Notes under the pieces: model-generated
What the model was told of the DNA's origin: nothing
The model's database searches: none
The model's input: the letters and a program-made list of their open reading frames with translations, nothing else
Translations under genes and position numbers: made by a program
In this document: piece by piece, positions 24,737 to 37,419 of the stretch
Layout: each line of letters starts with the position of its first letter
Numbering within the stretch: position 1 is the stretch's first letter
Source of the DNA: Serinicoccus hydrothermalis
Lineage (GTDB): Bacteria > Actinomycetota > Actinomycetes > Actinomycetales > Dermatophilaceae
NCBI RefSeq assembly: GCF_001685415.1
Contig: NZ_CP014989.1
Span: forward strand, 434,001 to 498,000
DNA length: 64,000 nucleotides
Reading direction: 5' to 3'

Positions 24737-24791
24737 GACCGGACACCCCTTGTGTCCGCATCTCCCCCGACCGGACACCCCGTCTGTCCGC
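24737..24791 (+). repeat. Two 23-bp hairpin repeats between xerD and parA
   Basis: Units 24737-24759 and 24769-24791 both begin GACCGGACACCCC and end TGTCCGC, so each forms a GGACA/TGTCC stem with a 7-nt loop. Two more copies, inverted, occur at 27224-27288 in the his operon. They lie immediately beyond the xerD stop, where they could act as a terminator or mRNA stabiliser. Confidence 0.75.
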
Positions 24792-25796: not shown

Positions 25797-25977
25797 GACC
25801 GGCCGCACGGTTTGTGTCGACCGACCGCGCACTTTGCGTCCACCGACCGCGCACCTTGTGTCGACTGACCGCGCACTTTGTGTTCTGCAGCGCAAACCGT
25901 GCGGCCGGTCCGCGCAAACCGTGCGGCCGGTCCGCGCAAACCGTGCGGCCGGTCCGACCAAACCCTGCGGCCGGTCG
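25797..25977. repeat. Inverted array of eight 22-bp units
   Basis: Four units in one orientation (25797-25884), a 5-bp spacer, then four units as their reverse complement (25890-25977). Core text is GACCGGCCGCACGGTTTG. The right-hand units R1-R3 are identical over 22 bp, while the left-hand ones have diverged. The array fills the divergent gap between xerD and the membrane-protein gene at 26001, leaving only about 24 bp on either side. Not a CRISPR: units abut with no spacers. Confidence 0.85.
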
Positions 25978-26610: not shown

Positions 26611-27294
26611 TCAGCCGTGCCGCTGCCGCAGCACCCGCTCGACGTCCGCCAGCCCGAGGTCGCGCGAGCGCAGCAGCACGAGCAGGTGGTAGACGAGGTC
26701 GGCCGACTCCCCGAGCAGCGCCTCGTCGTCCTGTGCCACCGCGGCCAGCGCCGTCTCGACCCCCTCCTCCCCGACCTTCTGCGCGATCCGTCGCACCCCG
26801 CCCTCGAAGAGCGAGGTGGTGTAGGACCCCTCCGGCAGCTCCGCCTGGCGGACGCGAACGACCTCGTCCAGCTCGTGCACGAAAGACCCCCGACGCGCGC
26901 CCGGGTCGAAGCAGGTCTCCTCGCCCGTGTGGCACGTGGGTCCGCTGGGGACGGCGTGGAGCAGCAGGGTGTCGCGGTCACAGTCGAGCTCGACCGCCTC
27001 GACGCGCAGCACGTTGCCGCTCGTCTCCCCCTTGGTCCACTGGGTGCCCCGGCTGCGGCTGAAGAAGGTCGCCAGCCCCGTCCGCAGGGTCGTGGCCAGC
27101 GCCTGCTCGTCGAGGAAGCCGACCATGAGCACCTGACCGGTGTGCGCGTGCTGCACGACACCGGGGATGATCCCGTCGGTCTTGGTGAAGTCGACGTCGG
27201 CGACGTCGAAGTCCGCCTCGACGCCGGACATACGGGGTGTCCGGTCGGTGTCAGGTGCCCCGGGACCGGACATACGGGGTGTCCGGTCGCTCAT
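26611..27294 (-). CDS. hisIE: Bifunctional phosphoribosyl-AMP cyclohydrolase / phosphoribosyl-ATP diphosphatase
   Basis: HisI domain: [29 protein letters not shown], the zinc-site CDRDTLLL and [12 protein letters not shown]. HisE domain: [21 protein letters not shown]. The single-chain fusion is the enterobacterial and xanthomonad form; actinobacteria usually carry hisI and hisE apart. From the ATG at 27294, which overlaps hisF by 4 nt, the first 23 codons are encoded by two copies of a 23-bp hairpin repeat (peptide DRTPRMSG twice). Homology begins near the third in-frame ATG at 27231, so either that is the true start (206 residues) or the repeat has added a leader (227 residues). Last gene of the operon. 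Confidence 0.92.
27224..27288 (-). repeat. Two 23-bp hairpin repeats at the hisF-hisIE junction
   Basis: Units 27224-27246 and 27266-27288 read on the minus strand GACCGGACACCCCGTATGTC plus CGG, a perfect 7-bp stem with 7-nt loop. They are the same family as 24737-24791 but inverted relative to it. Each unit carries an in-frame ATG for hisIE. Confidence 0.8.
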
Positions 27295-28064
27295 GAGCGC
27301 ACCTCCACACCCTGCTCGGCGAGCGTCGCCTTGAGGGACGGTATGGGGATGGACCCGTCGTGGAAGACCGTCGCCGCGAGCGCGCCGTCGACGTCGGCCT
27401 CGCGGAAGACGTCGACGAAGTGCTGCGGGGTCCCGGCCCCGCCGCTGGCGACGAGGGGCACCGGGCACAGCGAGCGGACCGCGGCCAGCTGCTCGATGTC
27501 GTAGCCGTCCCGCACCCCGTCCGAGCCCATGCAGTTGAGCACGACCTCCCCGGCGCCCAGCCCGACGACCTCGCGCACCCAGTCCAGCGTGGTCGTCTGC
27601 AGCGCCCGGGTCGCCTCGGGGCTGCCGGTGAACTGCCGGATCCGCCAGTGCCCGTCCTCGTCCCGCAGGCTGTCGACGCCGACGACGACGCACTGCACAC
27701 CGAAGGCGTCGGCGAGCTCGCCGACCAGCTCGGGCCGCTGCGTCGCGGGGGTGTTGACCGAGACCTTGTCGGCCCCGGCGTGCAGCACCGCACGGGCGGT
27801 CTCCACGGACCGGATGCCGCCGGCCACGCAGAAGGGGATGTCGATGGCGCGCGCCACCCGCGCCACCCAGCCGACGTCCACGCCGCGGCCCTCGGGGCTG
27901 GCGGTGATGTCGTAGAAGACGAGCTCGTCGGCGCCCTCACGGGCATACCGCTGCGCCAGCTCGACGATGTCGCCCATGTCGCGGTGGTTGCGGAAGCGGG
28001 TTCCCTTGACCACCCGCCCCTCGCGCACGTCGAGGCAGGGGATGATCCGCCGCGCCAGGGTCAT
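27291..28064 (-). CDS. hisF: Imidazole glycerol phosphate synthase, cyclase subunit
   Basis: 257-residue TIM barrel. Catalytic Asp in [15 protein letters not shown] and the second in [10 protein letters not shown]; phosphate sites CVAGGIRS and LVASGGAG. It closes the imidazole ring using ammonia from HisH. Both neighbours overlap by 4 nt. The Asp130-region sequence and length are normal. Confidence 0.96.
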
Positions 28065-28855
28065 GGCTGCTCCTCCAGCACCGCGTCGTCGACGGTGAAC
28101 CGGCCCTCGAGCAACGCCTTGCCCAGGATGATCCCGGCGCAGCCCTGCTTCTTGGCGGCCCGCACGTCGTCGACCGAGCGGGCCCCGCCCGAGGCCTGGA
28201 CCTGCAGCGCGGGGTTGGACCGGGTGAGCATCGTGTAGAGGTGGAAGTTGGGCCCGGACAGCGTGCCGTCCCGGCCGATGTCGGTGCAGAGAACGTGCCG
28301 CAGGCCCGAGCCGTGGTACTGGTGCAGCGTCGTCGTGAGGTCCTGCTCCCCCACCGAGGTCCAGCCCGCGGTCGGCAGCACCCAGCGGCCGTCCTCGCCG
28401 ATCCGCGTGTCGAGCGCCACGGTGACCCGCTCGGGCCCGAAGCGGTCCAGCCACCCGACCACGGTGGCGGGCTCCTGCACCGCGAGCGAGCCGACGACGA
28501 CCCGCTCGGCTCCGGCGTCCAGCAGCCGCTGCACGTCGTCGACGCTGCGGACGCCGCCGCCGGTCTGCACCCGCAGGCCGGTGGTGTCGCAGATCGTGGT
28601 GAGCGTCTCGAGCAGGGTGTATCCGCCGGCGCGGGCCGCGTCCAGGTCGACCAGGTGCAGCCAGGCGGCGCCGGAGCGGGCATAGCTCTCGGCCACGGCC
28701 ACCGGGTTGTCGGTGTAGCGCGTCTCCTGGTCGTAGTCACCCTTGTGCAGGCGCACGACCGCGCCGCCGCGGACGTCGATCGCCGGGTAGACGGTGAAGG
28801 CTCCGGTGTTGGTCACGGGGATCTCTCCGGTGTCGGTGCTGAGGTCGGGCGTCAT
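28061..28855 (-). CDS. hisA: ProFAR isomerase
   Basis: 264-residue TIM barrel. Catalytic Asp residues are in [15 protein letters not shown] and LCTDIGRDG; phosphate loops TGGGVRS and ASGGARS. Actinobacteria normally use PriA, which also serves tryptophan synthesis. This sequence resembles proteobacterial HisA along its length ([26 protein letters not shown]), in line with the rest of the operon. If so, a separate TrpF or PriA must exist elsewhere. An N-terminal leader of about 16 residues precedes the barrel. Confidence 0.9.
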
Positions 28856-29454
28856 CGGTCGACCTCCATGAGGAAGTTTCGCAGAAGCCGGGCGCCGACC
28901 GACGCCGACCTCTCGGGGTGGAACTGCGCGCCCCACCGCAGCCCGGAGCGCACGACCGCGGTCCACGGCTGCCCGTGCACCGTGCTCGCCAGGGTGTGCT
29001 CGCTCGGCGCGGCGGCGTAGGAGTGCACGAAGTAGGCCCGGTCGCCCTCCTCGATCCCCGCGAGCAGCGGGTCCTCCACGAGCCCTGTCAGCGCGTTCCA
29101 GCCCATGTGCGGCACCCGCAGGTCGGGTCCGCCCGGTATGCCGACCACCTCGCCGGGGACGAGGCCGAGCGTCGCCACCCCGCCGTCCTCTGCGGAGCGC
29201 TCGAAGAGCAGCTGCATGCCCAGGCATACCCCGAGCAGCGGCGCCTGCACCTGGGCCAGCGTCTCGACCAGGCCCAGCTCGCGCAGCCGGCACATGCCGG
29301 CACCGGCCGCGCCGACCCCGGGCAGGATGACGCGGTCGGCGGCCAGGATGTCGGCCGGGTCGGCGGTGAGCCTGCTGCTCGCGCCGAGCCGCTCGAGGGC
29401 GTAGCTGACCGAGCCGATGTTGGTGCCACCGCCGTCGACGAGGGCGACCTTCAC
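28852..29454 (-). CDS. hisH: Imidazole glycerol phosphate synthase, glutaminase subunit
   Basis: 200 residues. Class I glutamine amidotransferase with nucleophile Cys in [13 protein letters not shown] and the His/Glu pair in GAQFHPERS. The oxyanion-strand segment is [12 protein letters not shown]. It supplies ammonia to HisF. Overlaps hisB upstream and hisA downstream by 4 nt each. Confidence 0.95.
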
Positions 29455-30548
29455 AGGACGCCCTTGGTGGTGGGCAGCTCGCTGGAGTCGCCCTGCCGGG
29501 CGATGCCCATGCGCAGCGCGCGGGCGACCGCCTTGAAGCCCACCTCGATCTTGTGGTGGGTGTTGCCGCCGGTCACCGACAGGTGCAGGGTGCAGCGCAT
29601 CGCGTCGGCGAAGGAGCGCCAGAAGTGCTCGACCATCTCGGTCGAGAACTCGCCCACGGCCTCCCGGTCGAAGCTGCCCTCGTAGGCGAAGTAGGGCCGC
29701 CCCGACAGGTCGATCGCCGCGGTCGCCTGCGCCTCGTCCATGGGGAGGGTGAAGCCGTAGCGCCCGATCCCGCGCTTGTCGCCGAGCGCGGTGCGGATCG
29801 CCTCGCCCACGGCCAGCGCGACGTCCTCGACGGTGTGGTGGTCGTCGATGTGCAGGTCGCCCTCGCAGCTCACGCGCAGCCGGAAGCCGCCGTGCTTGGC
29901 GAGCTGGTCGAGCATGTGGTCGTAGAACCCGATGCCGGTGCTGATCTCGCTGCCGCCGGTCGCGTCCAGGTCCACCTCGACCGTGATCGCGGTCTCGGAG
30001 GTCGCGCGCTCGACCCGGGCGGTGCGCGGCGCGTCCGCGAGCTCGTGCGCGATCTGCGGCCAGGTGGTGCGGCTCCGGTCATCGTCGGTCCCCTCCCCGC
30101 CCAGCAGGTATGCCGGGATCCCCAGGTTGTCGGCGAACTCCCGGTCGGTGCCGCGGTCGCCGACCATGACGCTGCGGTCCCAGTCGACGCCGCGGTCCTT
30201 GAGCAGGTGGGCGACCATGCCGATGCCGGGCTTGCGGGTCCAGGGTGCCTCGGGCCCGCCGTGGTGGCGGTCGATGAAGACGTCCCGGAAGGTGATGCCC
30301 TGGCTGCCGAGCAGTTGCATGACGAGCCGGTGCGGCCCCTCGAAGTCGGGCGTGGGCAAGGACTCGGTGCCCAGGCCGTCCTGGTTGCTCACCATGACGA
30401 GGTCGAAGCCCGCCGCCTGGATCCGCAGCAGCGCGGGGATGACGCCGTCGACGAGCGCCACCTTGTCCAGCGCGTCGATCTGGTGGTCCTCCGGCTCGAC
30501 GATGATCGTGCCGTCGCGGTCGACGAAGCAGATCGGGCGGGGGCTCAT
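29451..30548 (-). CDS. hisB: Bifunctional histidinol-phosphatase / imidazoleglycerol-phosphate dehydratase
   Basis: 365 residues in two domains. Residues 1 to about 165 are a HAD phosphatase: nucleophile [36 protein letters not shown] and VMVGDRGTD. Residues of about 170-365 are IGP dehydratase with its His/Glu metal motifs [16 protein letters not shown] and [11 protein letters not shown]. Actinobacterial HisB is normally dehydratase only, with the phosphatase encoded elsewhere. Enterobacteria and xanthomonads have this fusion. E. coli HisB has a Cys/His zinc loop before the RKP motif; here that segment reads [15 protein letters not shown] and has no Cys, as I recall for xanthomonads, which largely lack it. 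Confidence 0.95.
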
Positions 30549-31675
30549 GCGGGGGTCTCCTCGGTCGTGGGGGCGGGTCGTGCGCTGGTCAGGGCCTCGC
30601 GCAGGGCGCTCATCTCGGGTCCGGTCCCGATGGTGATGCGCAGGGCGTCGTGCAGGCCGGGCAGGTGGCGCATGTCGCGGACCACGATCCCGGCGGCACC
30701 CAGGGTATGCAGCAGGGCGTCGGGGTCGTCGCAGCGCACCAGGAAGAAGTTGGCCTCGCTGGCATACACGGTGCGCACTCCGTCGAGGTCGCGCAGCCAC
30801 CGGCCGACCTGGTCGCGCAGCCGGAGCACGTCGCCGACGTGCTGCCTCGTCGCGTGCAGGACCTCCTCGGACAGGGCCCGCAGGGCCAGCTCGGTGACCG
30901 GCGCCGGCAACGGGTAGGGCGCCTGCACCCGGCGCAGCACCGCGACGAGGTCCGGGTGGGCCAGCGCGATGCCGACGCGCGCGCCGGCGAGCGCGTGCGC
31001 CTTGGACAGGGTGCGCAGCACGACGAGGGTCGGGTGCTCCTCGAGCAGGGTGATCGCGGAGCGCTGCGCGGCGAACTCGCCGTAGGCCTCGTCGACCACG
31101 ACGACGGCCTGGTCGGCCAGCTCCTCGGTCAGAGCTGCGATCTCGCGCAGCGGCACCACGGAGCCGGTGGGGTTGCCCGGCGAGGCCAGGAAGACCAGCC
31201 GGGCACCCTTGTCCCGGACGGCCCGTGCGACGGCGGCCGTGTCGACCCGCCAACGCAGCTCGTCGTCGGTCTGGGGCACGTCGATCACCGGCACGCCGTG
31301 CAACCGGGCGGAGACGGCATACATGCCGAACGTCGGGGACGTCACCACGACGCCGTCGCCGCCGGGGCGGCACAGGCTGCGCACGAGCAGCTCGATCGCC
31401 TCGTCGCTGCCGCGCCCGACGACCACCCGGTCCGGCGTGGTCGCCCAGAGGTCGGCGAAGGCCTCGACCAGGGCGGGTGGCTGTGGGTCCGGGTAGCGCC
31501 GGGACCCGCCCGCGTCGTCCGCGCTGCTCGCCACCCCGGACTCGTTGGCGTTGAGCCAGATCCGGTCCGGTAGGCCGGTGGGCGCGCTGGTGCGGGCCGA
31601 GGAGTACCCCGCGAAGTCGCGCAGGTCCGGGCGCACCAGGTGCGCCGGGAAGGTGGTGTCGCCGCGGGTGGTCAC
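30545..31675 (-). CDS. hisC: Histidinol-phosphate aminotransferase
   Basis: 376 residues from GTG 31675 (GTGA overlap with hisD). PLP lysine in [16 protein letters not shown]; Asp in [19 protein letters not shown] and the substrate-phosphate loop are present. The opening [13 protein letters not shown]...IWLNANES follows the enterobacterial/xanthomonad HisC pattern. Confidence 0.95.
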
Positions 31676-32979
31676 GGCTGCCCCTGGGTGCGGGCGAGAC
31701 GGCGCGTGACCGCGCGCTGGTGGGCGTGCAGCGACTCGGCCTCGGAGAGCGTCACGGCGCACGGGCCGACGGCGGCCAGGCCCTGCGGCGTGGCGCGCTG
31801 CACGGTCATGGCGATCTGGAAGGCGCCGACGTTGACGCCGCCGGTGAAGCGCGCGGCACCCGCGGTGGGCAGCACGTGGTTGGTGCCGGAGCAGTAGTCG
31901 CCGAGCGTCTCCGGGGTGTGGTCGCCGAGGAAGACCGACCCGGCCCGGTCGATGCGCGGCACCCAGGCCGACGCGTCGCGCAGGGCGAGGATGAGGTGCT
32001 CGGGGGCGTAGTCGTTGGACACCTCGACAGCTGTGGCCAGGTCGGGGGTGACGACGAGGCGCGAGGACGCGAGCGCCTTGCGGGCGATGTCGGCGCGCGG
32101 CAGGCTCTCCACCTGCTCCTCCACCTGGGTCGCGACCGCCTCGGCCAGCGGCCGGGAGTCGGTGAGCAGGACGACCTGGCTGTCCGGGCCGTGCTCGGCC
32201 TGGGAGAGCAGGTCGGCGGCGACGAACTCGGGGTCGGCGCCGGAGTCGGCGATGACGAGCACCTCGGAGGGGCCGGCCGGCATGTCGATGCCGGGGCCGC
32301 CCTCGGCGGTGCTCACCTGGCGCTTGGCCTCGGTGACCCAGGCGTTGCCCGGTCCGAAGATCTTGTCGCAGGCCGGCACGGTCTCGGTGCCGTAGGCCAG
32401 CGCGGCGACCGCCTGGGCGCCCCCGACGAGCACGACCTGGTCGATGCCGCACTCGGCCGCGGCCGCCAGCACGGCGGGGTCGACCGTGCCGTCCGGGCGC
32501 GGCGGGGTGGCGAGCACGACCTCCGGGCAGCCGGCGAGCTGCGCCGGGATCCCGAGCATGAGCGCGGTGGAGGGCAGCGGTGCCGACCCGGCGGGGACGT
32601 AGAGACCGACCCGGCGGATCGGGCGGACCACCCGCTGGCAGACGACCCCGGGGGCGGTCTCGACGGCATACCCCTGCTGCATGCCGGCGGCGTGGAAGGT
32701 GCGGATGCGACCCGCGGCCTCGGTGATCGCCTGCCGCAGGTCCGGGTCCAGCCCGGCCACGGCGGCGTCGCGGTCCTCGGTGCTGACCCGCAGCGAGGTC
32801 AGCTCAGCGCCGTCGAGGCGGGCGGTGAGCTCGAGGAGGGCGGCGTCCCCGCCCTCGCGCACCTGGCGCAGGATGCGGGCGACCCCCTCGGTGACCTCGG
32901 GACCGGCGGCCGCGGTGCCCCGGCGCAGGGCGTCGGTCCGCGCGGTCTCGTCGAGGTCCTCCCAGGTCAGGACGTTCAT
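31672..32979 (-). CDS. hisD: Histidinol dehydrogenase
   Basis: 435 residues. [34 protein letters not shown] and the zinc/catalytic segments [14 protein letters not shown] and DYAPEHLIL are complete. It oxidises histidinol to histidine in two NAD-dependent steps. ATG 32979 overlaps hisG by 4 nt. Confidence 0.96.
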
Positions 32980-33884
32980 GCGAGCATCCCCTCGACCGGG
33001 AGCACCATGAGGTTGTGCGCCCCGGCGCGCTTGAGGTCCTCTAGCCTCGCCCACGACACCGAGCCGTGGACGAGCATCTGCAGCGCGACCTCGTCGCGGC
33101 CGTCGACCGCCATGACGGTCGGCTCGTGGCCGCCGGGCAGCAGCGGCAGGAGGTCGTCGAGCAGCGGGCGCTCGACCCGGAGCATGAGCAACCGGGACTC
33201 CTTGAGCTGGACCGCGCCGTCGAGACGGCGCAGCAGCAGGTCGGCGATCTCCTGGCGCCCGTCGTCCAGCGGGTGCCCCGGCCCGGCGATGACTGCCTCG
33301 CTGTGCAGGATCGTCGTCACCGGCTTGAGCTGGTTGGCGCGCAGCGTGCCGCCGGTCGACACCAGGTCGCAGACGACATCGGCCTGGCCCAGCCGTGGAG
33401 CGATCTCCACCGAGCCGTTGAGGAGCACCGGCTCGGCGTCGACCCCGTGCTCCTCGAGCCAGCGGCCCAGGGTGTGGGGGTAGGAGGTGGCGATCCGCAT
33501 CCCGGCCAGCTGCTCGGGGCCGGTCCACTCCTGGTCCTCGTCGATGGCGACGTCCAGCCGGCACGTGCCCCAGCCGAGCTGGCGCCACTCGGTGAGATCC
33601 GCCCCGCGGCCCTGGGCCCGCCGGGCCAGGTCGTGCTCGACGAGGACGTTGCGGCCCACGATCCCCATGTCGCAGACCCCGTCGGCGATGAGGCCGGGGA
33701 TGTCGTCGTCGCGGACGAGCAGCAGGTCGACCGGCAGGCTCTCGCCGTAGCAGAAGAGCTTGTCGCGGCTCTCGCGCCAGGTGAGGCCGCAGGAGGCCAG
33801 CAGCTCGCGCGCGGGCTCGCCCAGGCGGCCGGACTTCTGGATCGCCACGCGCAGGCGGTCGCGCGGCTGGGCAGGCGGGGTCAT
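32976..33884 (-). CDS. hisG: ATP phosphoribosyltransferase, long form
   Basis: 302 residues from ATG 33884. [30 protein letters not shown] and [14 protein letters not shown] form the catalytic domain. The final 75 residues are the regulatory (histidine-sensing) domain ending [10 protein letters not shown]. First and committed enzyme of the pathway. The sequence runs parallel to enterobacterial HisG rather than to the actinobacterial type that pairs with a separate hisE. It lies 80 nt downstream of the TrpR-like gene. Confidence 0.95.
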
Positions 33885-33964
33885 CGGGGCCTTTCGTGGC
33901 AGGTGGGTGGCTCGGCCGGTCGGGCCGGGGGGAGCTCGGTGGTGGGTGCGCGCCGTCGGGCGGC

Positions 33965-34288
33965 TCAGGCCGTCGGCAGGCCCGCGGGATGCTCGTCGCG
34001 ATGCTCCAGGGCGGCACGATAGCCGCCGGCGCCGGCGTCCAGGCAGCGGGCGATGCGCCCGACCGTCGTCACGCTCACGCCGGTCTCGTCGTGGATCTGG
34101 CGGTACGACATACCCTCCGCGAGCAGCGGGACCACGGACCAGCGGTCGGCCAACGCCTCGATCTCGGCCGGGGTGCACAGGTCGTCGAGGAAGGCGTCGA
34201 CGGAAGCGGGGTCCGCGAGCGCGGCCAGCACCCGGGCCAGACCGTCCCGGGCCTGCGCGCCGCGGGCGGCGTCCTCACGCTGCTTCAT
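33965..34288 (-). CDS. TrpR/YerC-family DNA-binding regulator (candidate HisR)
   Basis: 107 residues from ATG 34288. A TrpR-fold helix-turn-helix is plain: [20 protein letters not shown] then [20 protein letters not shown]. The C-terminal helix reads [16 protein letters not shown]. Proteins of this YerC/YecD group are encoded before his operons in xanthomonads, where one is described as the histidine repressor HisR. Standing at the head of hisGDCBHAF-IE, it probably controls this operon, with histidine or a pathway intermediate as effector (inference). A CTAG-centred sequence lies upstream. Confidence 0.85.
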
Positions 34289-34325
34289 CCCTCGTCCTTC
34301 GTGCCGTGTGATCCGGCGTGCTGTC

Positions 34326-34346
34326 GTAACGCGCTAGTACGCTAAC
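34326..34346. promoter_or_regulatory. Candidate operator/promoter of the his operon (CTAGTAC core)
   Basis: Imperfect inverted sequence GTAACGCGCTAGTACGCTAA C with matching GTnA/TnAC ends and a CTAGTAC core at 34334-34340. The TrpR operator in E. coli is built of the same ACTAGT-type half-sites. It lies 38 nt before the TrpR-like start, where it would cover the promoter, and is one of few GTACGC hexamers in the window. Confidence 0.4.
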
Positions 34347-34422
34347 ACGCAGCCCCCTGCCCTCCCCAAATCCCCCGGACGTCCGACCGAGCGGACGCCG
34401 TGCCGGATGCGAGGATGCCGGT

Positions 34423-35255: not shown

Positions 35256-36656
35256 TCAGACGAGCGGCTGGGCCAGCTCGACGCGCAGCGCGCTGACGAC
35301 CTCGTCGCGGGGCACGCTGAACTGGTCCTGGCGGCGCAGGTCCTTGAGCGTGACCGTCCCGTCGGCCACCTCCTGCTGACCCAGGATCGCGACGAAGCGG
35401 ATGCCGGCGCGGTCGGCATACCGCAGCTGCTTGCCGAGCTTGCCACCGTCGAGCACCGCCTCGGTGTTGATCCCGCCGTGCCGCAGCTGCGAGGCCAGCG
35501 CGAGCTGGTCGTCCAGCAGCTCGGCGTCCACCTGCGGCACCAGCACCTGGACCGTCGACTCCGCCGCCGACGCCTCGATGAGGCCGGCCTCACGCAGCTG
35601 CCAGAACAGCCGGGAGAGCCCGATGGAGATCCCGACCCCGGGCAGGCGCGACTTGGTGTACTGCCCCGCCAGGTCGTCGTAGCGACCCCCGGAGCAGATC
35701 GAGCCGAGCTCGGGGTGCTCGTCGAGGGTCGTCTCGTAGACGGTGCCGGTGTAGTAGTCGAGCCCCCGGGCGATGGAGAAGTTGAGGCAGTAGTTGTCCT
35801 CCGGCACCCCGAGCGCGCGCACCAGCCCGAGCACCTCACGCAGCTCGGCCACGCCCCGGGCCAGCTCCTCGCTCCCGGCCGACCCGGCCGACACCTCATC
35901 CAATCGCGCCAGGGCGTCGTCGTGCCCGGTCGAGCGGGTCTGCACGAAGGCGAGGATCTGCTCGACCACGTCGACGCCCAGCCCGAAGCCCTCACCCGTC
36001 AAGGTGGTCCGCAGGTAGTCGGCACCGCGCTTGTCCAGCTTGTCGACCTCGCGCAGCACCGCGGCCTGGGCCTGCGGGTCGCCGATCCCGAGGTCCTCGT
36101 AGAACCCGCGCAGCAGCCTGCGGTTGTTGATCTGGATGGTGAAGTCGCCGATGGCGAGGTCGGCGAAGATCGCGTTGATGATCGCCGGAGCCTCAGCGTC
36201 GTGCCGGACCGACAGCTCGTCCTTGCCGATGACGTCGACGTCGCACTGGTAGAACTCCCGGAACCGCCCCCGCTGCGGCCGCTCGCCGCGGTAGACCCGC
36301 TGCATCTGGTAGCGCCGGAACGGGAAGGTGAGCTGGTGCTCGTGCTCGGCGACGTAGCGCGCCAGCGGCACGGTGAGGTCGAAGCGCAGCGCCAGCTCGG
36401 GCAGCGTCTCCTCGGCGCCGTCCTGCGAGCGCGCCTTCTCCAGCGCCCCGGTCGACTGGGCGAAGTAGACCTGGCGCTCGGTCTCCCCGCCGGTCTTGGT
36501 CAGCAGGACGTCGGAGCGCTCGAAGACGGGGGTCTCGATCGGGAGGAAGCCGAAGCGCTCGTAGCCGGAGCGAATCGAGTCCAGCATCCGCTGGAAGGCG
36601 ATCTGCTCGGGCGGCAGCAGCTCGAGGACACCGGACGGCGTGCGCGGGGAGATCAC
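35256..36656 (-). CDS. hisS: Histidyl-tRNA synthetase
   Basis: 466 residues from GTG 36656. Class II motifs: [12 protein letters not shown], motif 2 [21 protein letters not shown], histidine A-box [13 protein letters not shown] and motif 3 [14 protein letters not shown]-terminal anticodon-binding domain follows. The frame stays open further upstream, but family homology begins at [14 protein letters not shown] directly after this GTG. A -10-like TAGACT sits 7 nt before it, which fits a leaderless transcript. Confidence 0.93.
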
Positions 36657-36663
36657 CCGCGAG

Positions 36664-36669
36664 AGTCTA
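36664..36669 (-). promoter_or_regulatory. -10 element of hisS, leaderless configuration
   Basis: TAGACT on the minus strand, 7 nt from GTG 36656. No Shine-Dalgarno lies between. Confidence 0.55.
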
Positions 36670-36717: not shown

Positions 36718-36723
36718 CATAGT
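36718..36723 (+). promoter_or_regulatory. -10 element of the small alarmone synthetase gene, leaderless configuration
   Basis: CATAGT, 6 nt before ATG 36730, without a ribosome-binding site between. Confidence 0.4.
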
Positions 36724-36729
36724 GGTGCC

Positions 36730-37419
36730 ATGAGCACCGGAGCTGCGTTGCCCCCGTCCTTCGAGCTGTCCTCGCGGGAGGGGATCACCCCGGCGCAGCT
36801 GCGCGAGGTGGGTGAGCAGCTGCAGCGCTTCCTGCTCGAGTACGAGTTCGGGCTGCGCGAGGTCGAGACCAAGATCGAGATCCTGCGCGACGAGTTCTCC
36901 CACATGCACGACTACAACCCGATCGAGCACGTCTCCAGCCGGGTCAAGTCGCCCGACAGCCTGCGCGAGAAGGTCGTGCGCCGCGGGCTGGCGATGGACC
37001 TGGACACGATCCGGCGCGAGATCACCGACATCGCCGGCATCCGCGTCTCCTGCAGCTTCGTCACCGACGCCTACCGCATCTTCGACCTGCTGACCCAGCA
37101 GGACGACATCACGATCCGGCGCGTCTCGGACTACATCGCCCACCCCAAGCCCAACGGCTACAAGAGCCTCCACGCGATCATCGAGATCCCGGTCTTCCTG
37201 TCGACCGGGCGGGTCGAGGTCCCGGTGGAGGTCCAGCTACGCACCATCGCCATGGACTTCTGGGCCAGCACCGAGCACAAGATCCACTACAAGTACGACG
37301 GCAACGTCCCGGGCACGCTGCTCGACGAGCTCAAGACGGCGGCGGACAGCGCCGCCGAGCTGGACGCGCGGATGCACCGGCTGCACCGCGAGCTCCACGG
37401 TCAGAGCGAGGTCAGGTAG
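36730..37419 (+). CDS. Small alarmone synthetase (RelQ/RelP-type (p)ppGpp synthetase)
   Basis: 229 residues with only the RelA/SpoT synthetase domain: [21 protein letters not shown], then [20 protein letters not shown] (the substrate loop), then [23 protein letters not shown] with the catalytic Glu. There is no HD hydrolase, TGS or ACT domain. It makes (p)ppGpp from ATP and GDP/GTP without ribosome control. An N-terminal helix of about 45 residues precedes the domain. The long bifunctional RelA lies only 4 kb away. The 3' end overlaps the convergent hydrolase gene by 19 nt. Confidence 0.9.

Follow-up and report, generated by a model that had tools for sequence, protein, structure and literature searches.

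The window analysed here is a 64,000-nucleotide stretch of the Serinicoccus hydrothermalis chromosome (contig NZ_CP014989.1, positions 434,001 to 498,000). It carries at positions 26611-34288 a nine-gene histidine operon, hisR-hisG-D-C-B-H-A-F-IE, with all genes on the minus strand. Serinicoccus is a genus of the Ornithinimicrobiaceae (Actinomycetes, Micrococcales), and the genome is a single contig of 3.6 Mb. Genes were called by scoring NCBIfam and Pfam models against their curated cut-offs, and each of the nine exceeded the cut-off of its family. Seven of the eight gene junctions are 4-base overlaps when starts are read from the translations. The features, all on the minus strand, are as follows.

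34322..34348, minus strand: candidate HisR operator, made up of the palindrome CGTACTAGCGCGTTACGACA (34322-34341) and an overlapping extra upstream half-site, GTGTTAG, that extends to 34348
33965..34288, minus strand: hisR, regulator of the YerC/TrpR family and first gene of the operon (PF01371 84 bits, TIGR02531 61 bits, over the cut-offs)
32976..33884, minus strand: hisG, long form with C-terminal domain (HisG and HisG_C; profile matches, tree)
31672..32979, minus strand: hisD, histidinol dehydrogenase (profile match, tree)
30545..31675, minus strand: hisC, histidinol-phosphate aminotransferase, GTG start (profile match)
29451..30548, minus strand: hisB, HAD phosphatase plus imidazoleglycerol-phosphate dehydratase, without Cys zinc loop (profile match)
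28852..29454, minus strand: hisH, glutamine amidotransferase subunit (profile match)
28061..28855, minus strand: hisA, true phosphoribosylformimino-5-aminoimidazole carboxamide ribotide (ProFAR) isomerase as opposed to PriA (has Trp145, lacks Arg143; profile match, tree)
27291..28064, minus strand: hisF, cyclase subunit (profile match)
26611..27294, minus strand: hisIE, fused cyclohydrolase/pyrophosphatase (profile match)
35256..36665, minus strand: hisS, xanthomonad-type histidyl-tRNA synthetase, the only match in the genome (start codon approximate)

A preliminary description of this DNA had read the operon as one with fused HisB and HisIE, a long HisG and a true HisA, headed by a YerC/TrpR-family gene and native in base composition, and the profile scores and composition bear this out. 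HisB is bifunctional, with both domains in one frame (NF003937, 500 bits against a cut-off of 443, residues 5-365), and HisIE is a fusion (NF002747, 253 bits against 187). The operon HisA scored 242 bits with TIGR00007 (cut-off 229) and 161 bits with the PriA model TIGR01919 (cut-off 306). The G+C content of the operon is 71-76%, and 90-99% at third codon positions, similar to adjoining genes. Neither a tRNA nor an Rfam match at the gathering score was found within the operon. The segment of HisB without the Cys zinc loop, which had been taken to recall xanthomonads, is real, with no Cys at 10/10 loci of the Serinicoccus/Ornithinimicrobium group (E. coli has three). It is not specific to xanthomonads, however: the segment also lacks Cys at 19/22 xanthomonad and 8/10 Bacteroidota loci, and we rejected it as a xanthomonad mark.

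The regulator belongs to a known family. TrpR/YerC-type proteins have been named HisR, and their proteobacterial site, TGTAnTArnnnnyTnTTACA, lies immediately upstream of hisR (PMC9413887). A single PF01371 gene was found in each of six operon-holding genomes and also in both xanthomonad metagenome-assembled genomes (MAGs) described below, and in none of five relatives from the host family. At all 10 operon-holder loci and all 22 xanthomonad loci hisR stands directly before hisG. For the site search the published consensus was made symmetrical before any sites were seen, 300 shuffles were used, and hisR starts were inferred from alignment. A 20-bp palindrome of the TGTAnTA type was detected upstream of hisR (shuffle P≤0.05) at 10/10 holder loci and 20/22 xanthomonad loci; the xanthomonad loci without it, L109 and L119 (G and L numbers are our handles for genomes and loci), tell against the reading. 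A third, overlapping half-site lies 8 bp upstream in 9/10 holders, all but L072. The derived operator pattern had one exact match in the 3.6 Mb genome, upstream of hisR, and one further match with two mismatches, while the reversed control gave five; with two places against five, further HisR sites were rejected as no more than background.

By its sequence the TrpR-like gene encodes HisR, and its candidate operator is of the proteobacterial kind. As in the HisR regulon of Xanthomonadales and other Proteobacteria (PMC9413887), hisR heads the his operon and the palindrome is immediately upstream. In contrast to that regulon, the host here is in the class Actinomycetes, the site fits 9-11 of 12 consensus positions, and most holders have the extra overlapping half-site. 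HisR may thus autoregulate a single his operon, with histidine as the presumed co-repressor. The preliminary description took control of his genes by a TrpR-family protein to be possibly new in the phylum. It is not entirely so, since HisR had been predicted in 22 Coriobacteriales/Eggerthellales genomes, but the motif there is of the Firmicutes type and the gene is not clustered with his genes (PMC9413887). As a separate observation, the three overlapping half-sites at 8-bp spacing (window 34322-34348 and its counterparts) suggest tandem HisR binding; the xanthomonad locus L112, of the nearest clade, has a similar extension.

The operon form is rare in Actinomycetota. The HAD half of HisB was matched at E≤1e-20 in only one of 396 sampled genomes of the phylum, namely the host. 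Within the host family 4/59 genomes have a full-length fused HisB, two of the host genus (G000, G047) and two of another genus (G008, G057); in 54 the best match covers just the dehydratase half, and G014 has no match. Among named genomes the scan picked up 20 loci. Closest to the window are five Serinicoccus contigs and then Ornithinimicrobium tianjinense, all with the same block and the same flanks. A Rhodanobacter MAG and a Dokdonella MAG have the whole operon and a hisR, while ten Bacteroidota loci have no hisR in the stretch examined; the remaining loci are a weak match and one contig filed under an "Acidobacteria" MAG with an Ornithinimicrobium-type block. In the order of the Dokdonella MAG all 61 genomes have a HisB match, 51 near full length (best 62% identity), 3 partial and 7 with the dehydratase half only. 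Chance, contamination and misassembly were rejected as explanations, since several independent genomes share the block and the host genome itself is a single contig.

Two of these genomes call for separate remarks. The Acidobacteria-filed contig (L016, QEUR01000134.1) carries a hisS-cyclophilin-hisR-hisGDCB block at 71-86% identity to the window (HisS 86%, cyclophilin 71%), and it is probably a misbinned Ornithinimicrobium-type contig. In G014 there is no HisB match and no HisA or HisF match over the cut-off, and this genome has a TrpF (PF00697, 110 bits) and a full-scoring HisN (279 bits); TrpF is missing in ten other group genomes tested.

The origin of the operon was examined in trees of eight concatenated proteins, one with 39 taxa and a second, by fast search, with 33 taxa including two native actinobacterial genomes (2333 columns); mostly-gap columns were trimmed. 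A few loci were extracted with overhangs (HisC in the window, L011 and L111; HisD in L016, L110 and L114), and the HisC identity and the HisC ratio of nonsynonymous to synonymous substitution (dN/dS) are affected by this. In both trees Serinicoccus, O. tianjinense, G057 and G008 formed one clade with support of 100, nested among xanthomonad loci. Constraining the 19 xanthomonad rows to monophyly without the operon holders was 223 log units worse (approximately unbiased [AU] test, P = 5.6e-5), and forcing the holders together with native actinobacteria was 86 log units worse (P = 0.0057). Vertical descent within actinobacteria was rejected on these concatenated data. Protein by protein, identity is 49-73% to the nearest xanthomonad clade (five loci) and 34-52% to native actinobacteria, which have no HisR to compare.

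The single-gene trees, which the preliminary description had proposed as a check, were not all decisive. Monophyly of the xanthomonads was rejected for HisG (AU P = 0.0003), HisA (0.011), HisC (0.021) and, barely, HisD (0.049). Several results weigh against the nesting: xanthomonad monophyly was not rejected singly for HisB (0.14), HisH (0.115), HisF (0.38), HisIE (0.12-0.14), HisR (0.33) or HisS (0.60), a clade of operon holders and natives was not rejected for HisG (0.27) or HisD (0.26), and the HisB and HisIE trees with native rows put a long native branch inside the operon-holder group. We read this last placement as probable long-branch attraction, because identities favour xanthomonads for both HisB (60-65% vs 47-50%) and HisIE (56-62% vs 47-52%). 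The HisB tree with native rows also hinted that HisB joins a foreign HAD half to a native dehydratase half, a reading that we rejected. The dehydratase identity is 56-66% to xanthomonads and 46-49% to natives, the holders form one clade at 99.6 in the HisB tree without native rows, and the dehydratase-only tree rejected none of three alternatives.

The nesting supports acquisition of the operon from a bacterium within Xanthomonadales by a common ancestor of Serinicoccus and its Ornithinimicrobium-type relatives. The old transfer suggested in the preliminary description thus finds support in the concatenated trees, the AU tests, the identities, the rarity of the operon in the phylum, and the regulator with its operator. 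This operon form does prevail in the host group, a point that had been held up against transfer if it reflected vertical descent, but it came to do so by transfer and not by actinobacterial descent.

The histidine genes that the recipient would have had before can be traced at their former place. In 20/20 relatives the ancestral order is hisD, hisC, hisB, hisH, priA, sseB, with intervening genes in some; in the stretches taken, glnE precedes in 9 and infC follows in 11, and an unnamed gene lies between hisB and hisH in 15. At the corresponding locus all six holders have glnA, glnE, a diverged priA, sseB, infC and rplT, and hisD, hisC, hisB and hisH are missing among the compared genes. The unnamed gene still precedes the diverged priA in 5/6 (tblastn). 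This priA is the third PF00977 gene, besides HisA and HisF, in 6/6 tested holders, while HisF and PriA are the sole such genes in four relatives, apart from a 44-residue fragment match in G040. TrpF (PF00697) was found in none of the six holders and none of the four relatives. Of the checks suggested earlier, that for priA thus turned up a diverged copy kept at the ancestral locus in all six holders, and that for trpF came back empty. The host genome yielded no second copy of HisF, HisE or HisS, and no search was made for second hisG, hisD, hisC or trp genes.

In the PriA tree (without L161, a native row cut to 68 residues by an extraction error) the diverged priA products and 19 native PriA formed a clade at 100/100, and placement of the diverged PriA as sister of the operon HisA was rejected (AU P = 0.001). 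Rough dN/dS for this gene was 0.34-0.39 (NG86 method, two to three pairs). All six diverged proteins keep Arg143 and have lost Trp145 (Thr in five, Arg in one); Arg85 and Thr170 are also lost, and Asp11, Asp130 and Asp175 are kept. Native PriA has both Arg143 and Trp145, and HisA of holders and xanthomonads has Trp145 without Arg143 (20/20). The number 143 for the arginine fits the spacing. Residue names for these sites otherwise follow PMC13055916 and PMC5404923. By these residues the diverged PriA would be TrpF-only in the host.

A further native gene appears in altered form. The best HisN (TIGR02067, cut-off 275) scores were 273-289 bits in five relatives, 183-194 in Serinicoccus and O. tianjinense, and at most 137 in G008 and G057. 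The intermediate matches are the native gene, with the same two flanking gene families in 4/4 holders and 4/4 relatives. The simple loss of HisN was rejected for these four genomes; G008 and G057 have no match above 137 bits. In 4/4 Gly-Arg-(Met/Thr/Ile) stands in place of the Gly-Glu-Glu motif, with Ala for the motif-1 Asp and Gln for the motif-6 Asp, so that the equivalents of Glu69/Glu70, Asp46 and Asp215 are all replaced. These acids are described as strictly conserved in inositol monophosphatase-like enzymes, the motif-2 Glu and motif-6 Asp being metal ligands (PMC5516325). Among solved structures the nearest is that of a histidinol-phosphatase (5yht, 175 bits). The gene looks like a HisN descendant that is catalytically disabled, and on its residues we do not class it as a HisN enzyme; the check for hisN suggested earlier thus led to a gene kept in four genomes and apparently broken at its metal site. 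A phosphatase of altered mechanism or substrate is a doubtful alternative. It would fit the open frame with 77-84% identity within Serinicoccus, the motif-3 Asp pair retained in 4/4 and a rough dN/dS of 0.22-0.28 (imported genes 0.13-0.27; NG86, two to three pairs), but the loss of such strictly conserved acids in all four argues against it. On this dN/dS the gene is constrained and not freely decaying.

The gene for histidyl-tRNA synthetase upstream of the operon is also of xanthomonad type. HisS is 65-72% identical to 10/13 xanthomonad genomes compared, 67-69% to G061 and G062, and 42-46% to 9/9 family relatives; the remaining three xanthomonad genomes carry a different type of HisS. Grouping the HisS of operon holders with native HisS in one clade was rejected (AU P = 0.0056). 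In 7 of the 10 xanthomonad genomes with this type hisS lies 0.3-6.1 kb from hisR. Because hisS is of xanthomonad type and linked to the operon, the hisS-hisR-his block probably moved together.

Piecewise assembly, in which the his operon, hisR and hisS would have come by separate transfers, perhaps from different donors, and become neighbours by chance, we consider unlikely. Several observations lean that way and count against a block transfer: hisS is unlinked to hisR in two of the ten xanthomonad genomes and on another contig in one, the HisS tree does not resolve the nesting (the AU value of 0.60 above) and favours a place beside other xanthomonads, the free trees group HisH with L018 and HisD with L019, and hisS and hisR are now separated, by a cyclophilin gene in Serinicoccus or by an opposite-strand gene, catalase-like by eye, in G057. 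On the other side, hisS stands 0.3-3.9 kb before hisR at the five judgeable loci of the nearest clade (L105, L107, L110, L112, L117), and G057 and G008 share the hisS-hisR linkage with Serinicoccus. A cyclophilin gene also lies near native hisS at 10/14 actinobacterial loci (flanks of about 1.5 kb; not L087, L091, L148 or L149), on the opposite side of hisS.

Two independent acquisitions, one by Serinicoccus/O. tianjinense and one by the genus of G008 and G057, are very improbable. HisB identity between the groups (62-66%) is about the same as to the best xanthomonad (62%), and the fates of HisN differ, as two acquisitions might give. In both concatenated trees, however, the holders group as a single clade at 100, and the two groups have the same hisS-hisR linkage and the diverged priA kept at the same locus; the tandem operator is present in G057 too (G008 lacks the extra half-site in this form).

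The diverged priA is, by its sequence, an enzyme already described. The HisA of O. murale rescues only an E. coli hisA deletion and its PriA only a trpF deletion, and the latter was named SubTrpF2 (PMC13055916, published 2026); SubTrpF2 is described there for Ornithinimicrobiaceae, and the O. murale enzyme is the orthologue of the gene found here. In that paper SubTrpF2 is explained by a duplication of hisA and a genomic context not reported before; the main text makes no mention of horizontal gene transfer, Xanthomon-, hisB or hisN, the word "horizontal" occurring only in its introduction and reference list. That SubTrpF2 arose by duplication of hisA into a new context agrees with the co-occurrence of HisA and PriA in all family genomes of that study, but is hardly credible, being contradicted by the priA tree and the synteny: the protein groups with native PriA and not with the operon HisA, the supposedly new context matches the ancestral his locus seen in the 20 relatives, minus hisD, hisC, hisB and hisH, and HisA sits in the xanthomonad-derived operon. 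Two changes given there as causes, Arg19 to Gln and Thr105 to Ser, do not discriminate, as Gln19 occurs in 19/19 native PriA and Ser105 in 20/20 HisA. The present data give as origin of SubTrpF2 a native priA at its native place, which specialised after a foreign hisA had arrived, where PMC13055916 has a hisA duplication and an unreported locus.

We hold it highly probable that a xanthomonad block was acquired with its switch, that the native pathway was displaced, and that PriA became TrpF-only and HisN disabled. A block hisS-hisR-hisGDCBHAF(IE) from within Xanthomonadales would have entered the common ancestor of Serinicoccus and the Ornithinimicrobium-type relatives. HisR, presumably with histidine as co-repressor, would bind the palindrome just upstream of hisR and control the whole operon including hisR, as suggested by the known HisR family and the conserved site. 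The imported pathway would have taken over histidine synthesis, and the recipient hisD, hisC, hisB and hisH would have been lost from the ancestral locus. PriA, which earlier served both histidine and tryptophan, would have been relieved of the histidine half; with the loss of the ProFAR-binding Arg85, Trp145 and Thr170, and with Asp11, Asp130, Asp175 and Arg143 kept, it may have become TrpF-only. It would have stayed in place because no trpF exists. HisN, redundant beside the phosphatase half of HisB, would have stayed in Serinicoccus and O. tianjinense and lost several of its metal-binding acids. A more specific version is possible but tentative. In it the whole module, comprising the aminoacyl-tRNA synthetase, the repressor together with its operator and the eight enzyme genes, would have passed between phyla in a single block and displaced the native pathway. 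Serinicoccus and O. tianjinense would then have repurposed two native enzymes instead of losing them: PriA, confined to the TrpF reaction, and HisN, conserved as a pseudophosphatase whose metal site is broken and which has taken on a new role, perhaps in regulation.

The nearest precedent is SubHisA of Corynebacterium (Noda-Garcia 2013, as cited in PMC5404923 and PMC13055916), where a trp operon was transferred and PriA became HisA-only. In both cases transfer of a whole amino-acid operon frees the PriA of the recipient from one reaction and PriA specialises, but here the his operon arrived and PriA apparently became TrpF-only, the mirror image. The two form a matched pair with which to test what decides the specialisation of a bifunctional enzyme. 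SubTrpF of Actinomycetaceae (PMC5404923) is likewise a TrpF-only PriA that has lost the stacking Trp; there it was driven by loss of his genes, whereas here replacement by a foreign pathway would be the cause. HisR, bifunctional HisB and SubTrpF2 are known kinds. Three things are new as far as searched: the derivation of the module, together with its operator and probably hisS, from xanthomonads; the genes missing from the ancestral locus; and the relic of hisN. In the literature searched, mostly without subscription papers, no report of this his-operon transfer or of such a HisN was found. The findings supply a cause for the published SubTrpF2 enzymes and argue against their origin by hisA duplication. 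They suggest that a repressor and its operator, and probably a tRNA synthetase, moved between phyla along with the pathway they serve, and displaced genes can be seen in one lineage as missing, specialised and disabled.

Some minor observations concern priA and the neighbourhood of the operon. In G057 the priA frame runs into sseB (L063 9228-10652), giving one open frame of 474 codons and a possible PriA-SseB fusion, and the frame in G008 runs on too. A short protein of the RelA/SpoT family (window 36718-37419, about 233 amino acids, PF04607 115 bits) adjoins hisS. A 17-bp palindrome, GGACATACGGGGTGTCC, occurs twice in the 5' codons of hisIE (window 27226-27284) and adds an in-frame repeat, DRTPRMSG; two more copies with one mismatch each lie at 24741-24789, a total of four against 0.27 expected. 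Between xerD and the next gene (window 25797-25976) there are two adjoining 22-bp tandem arrays of four copies each (83 and 95% matches), and related 25-mers occur there four times with at most three mismatches, where none was expected.

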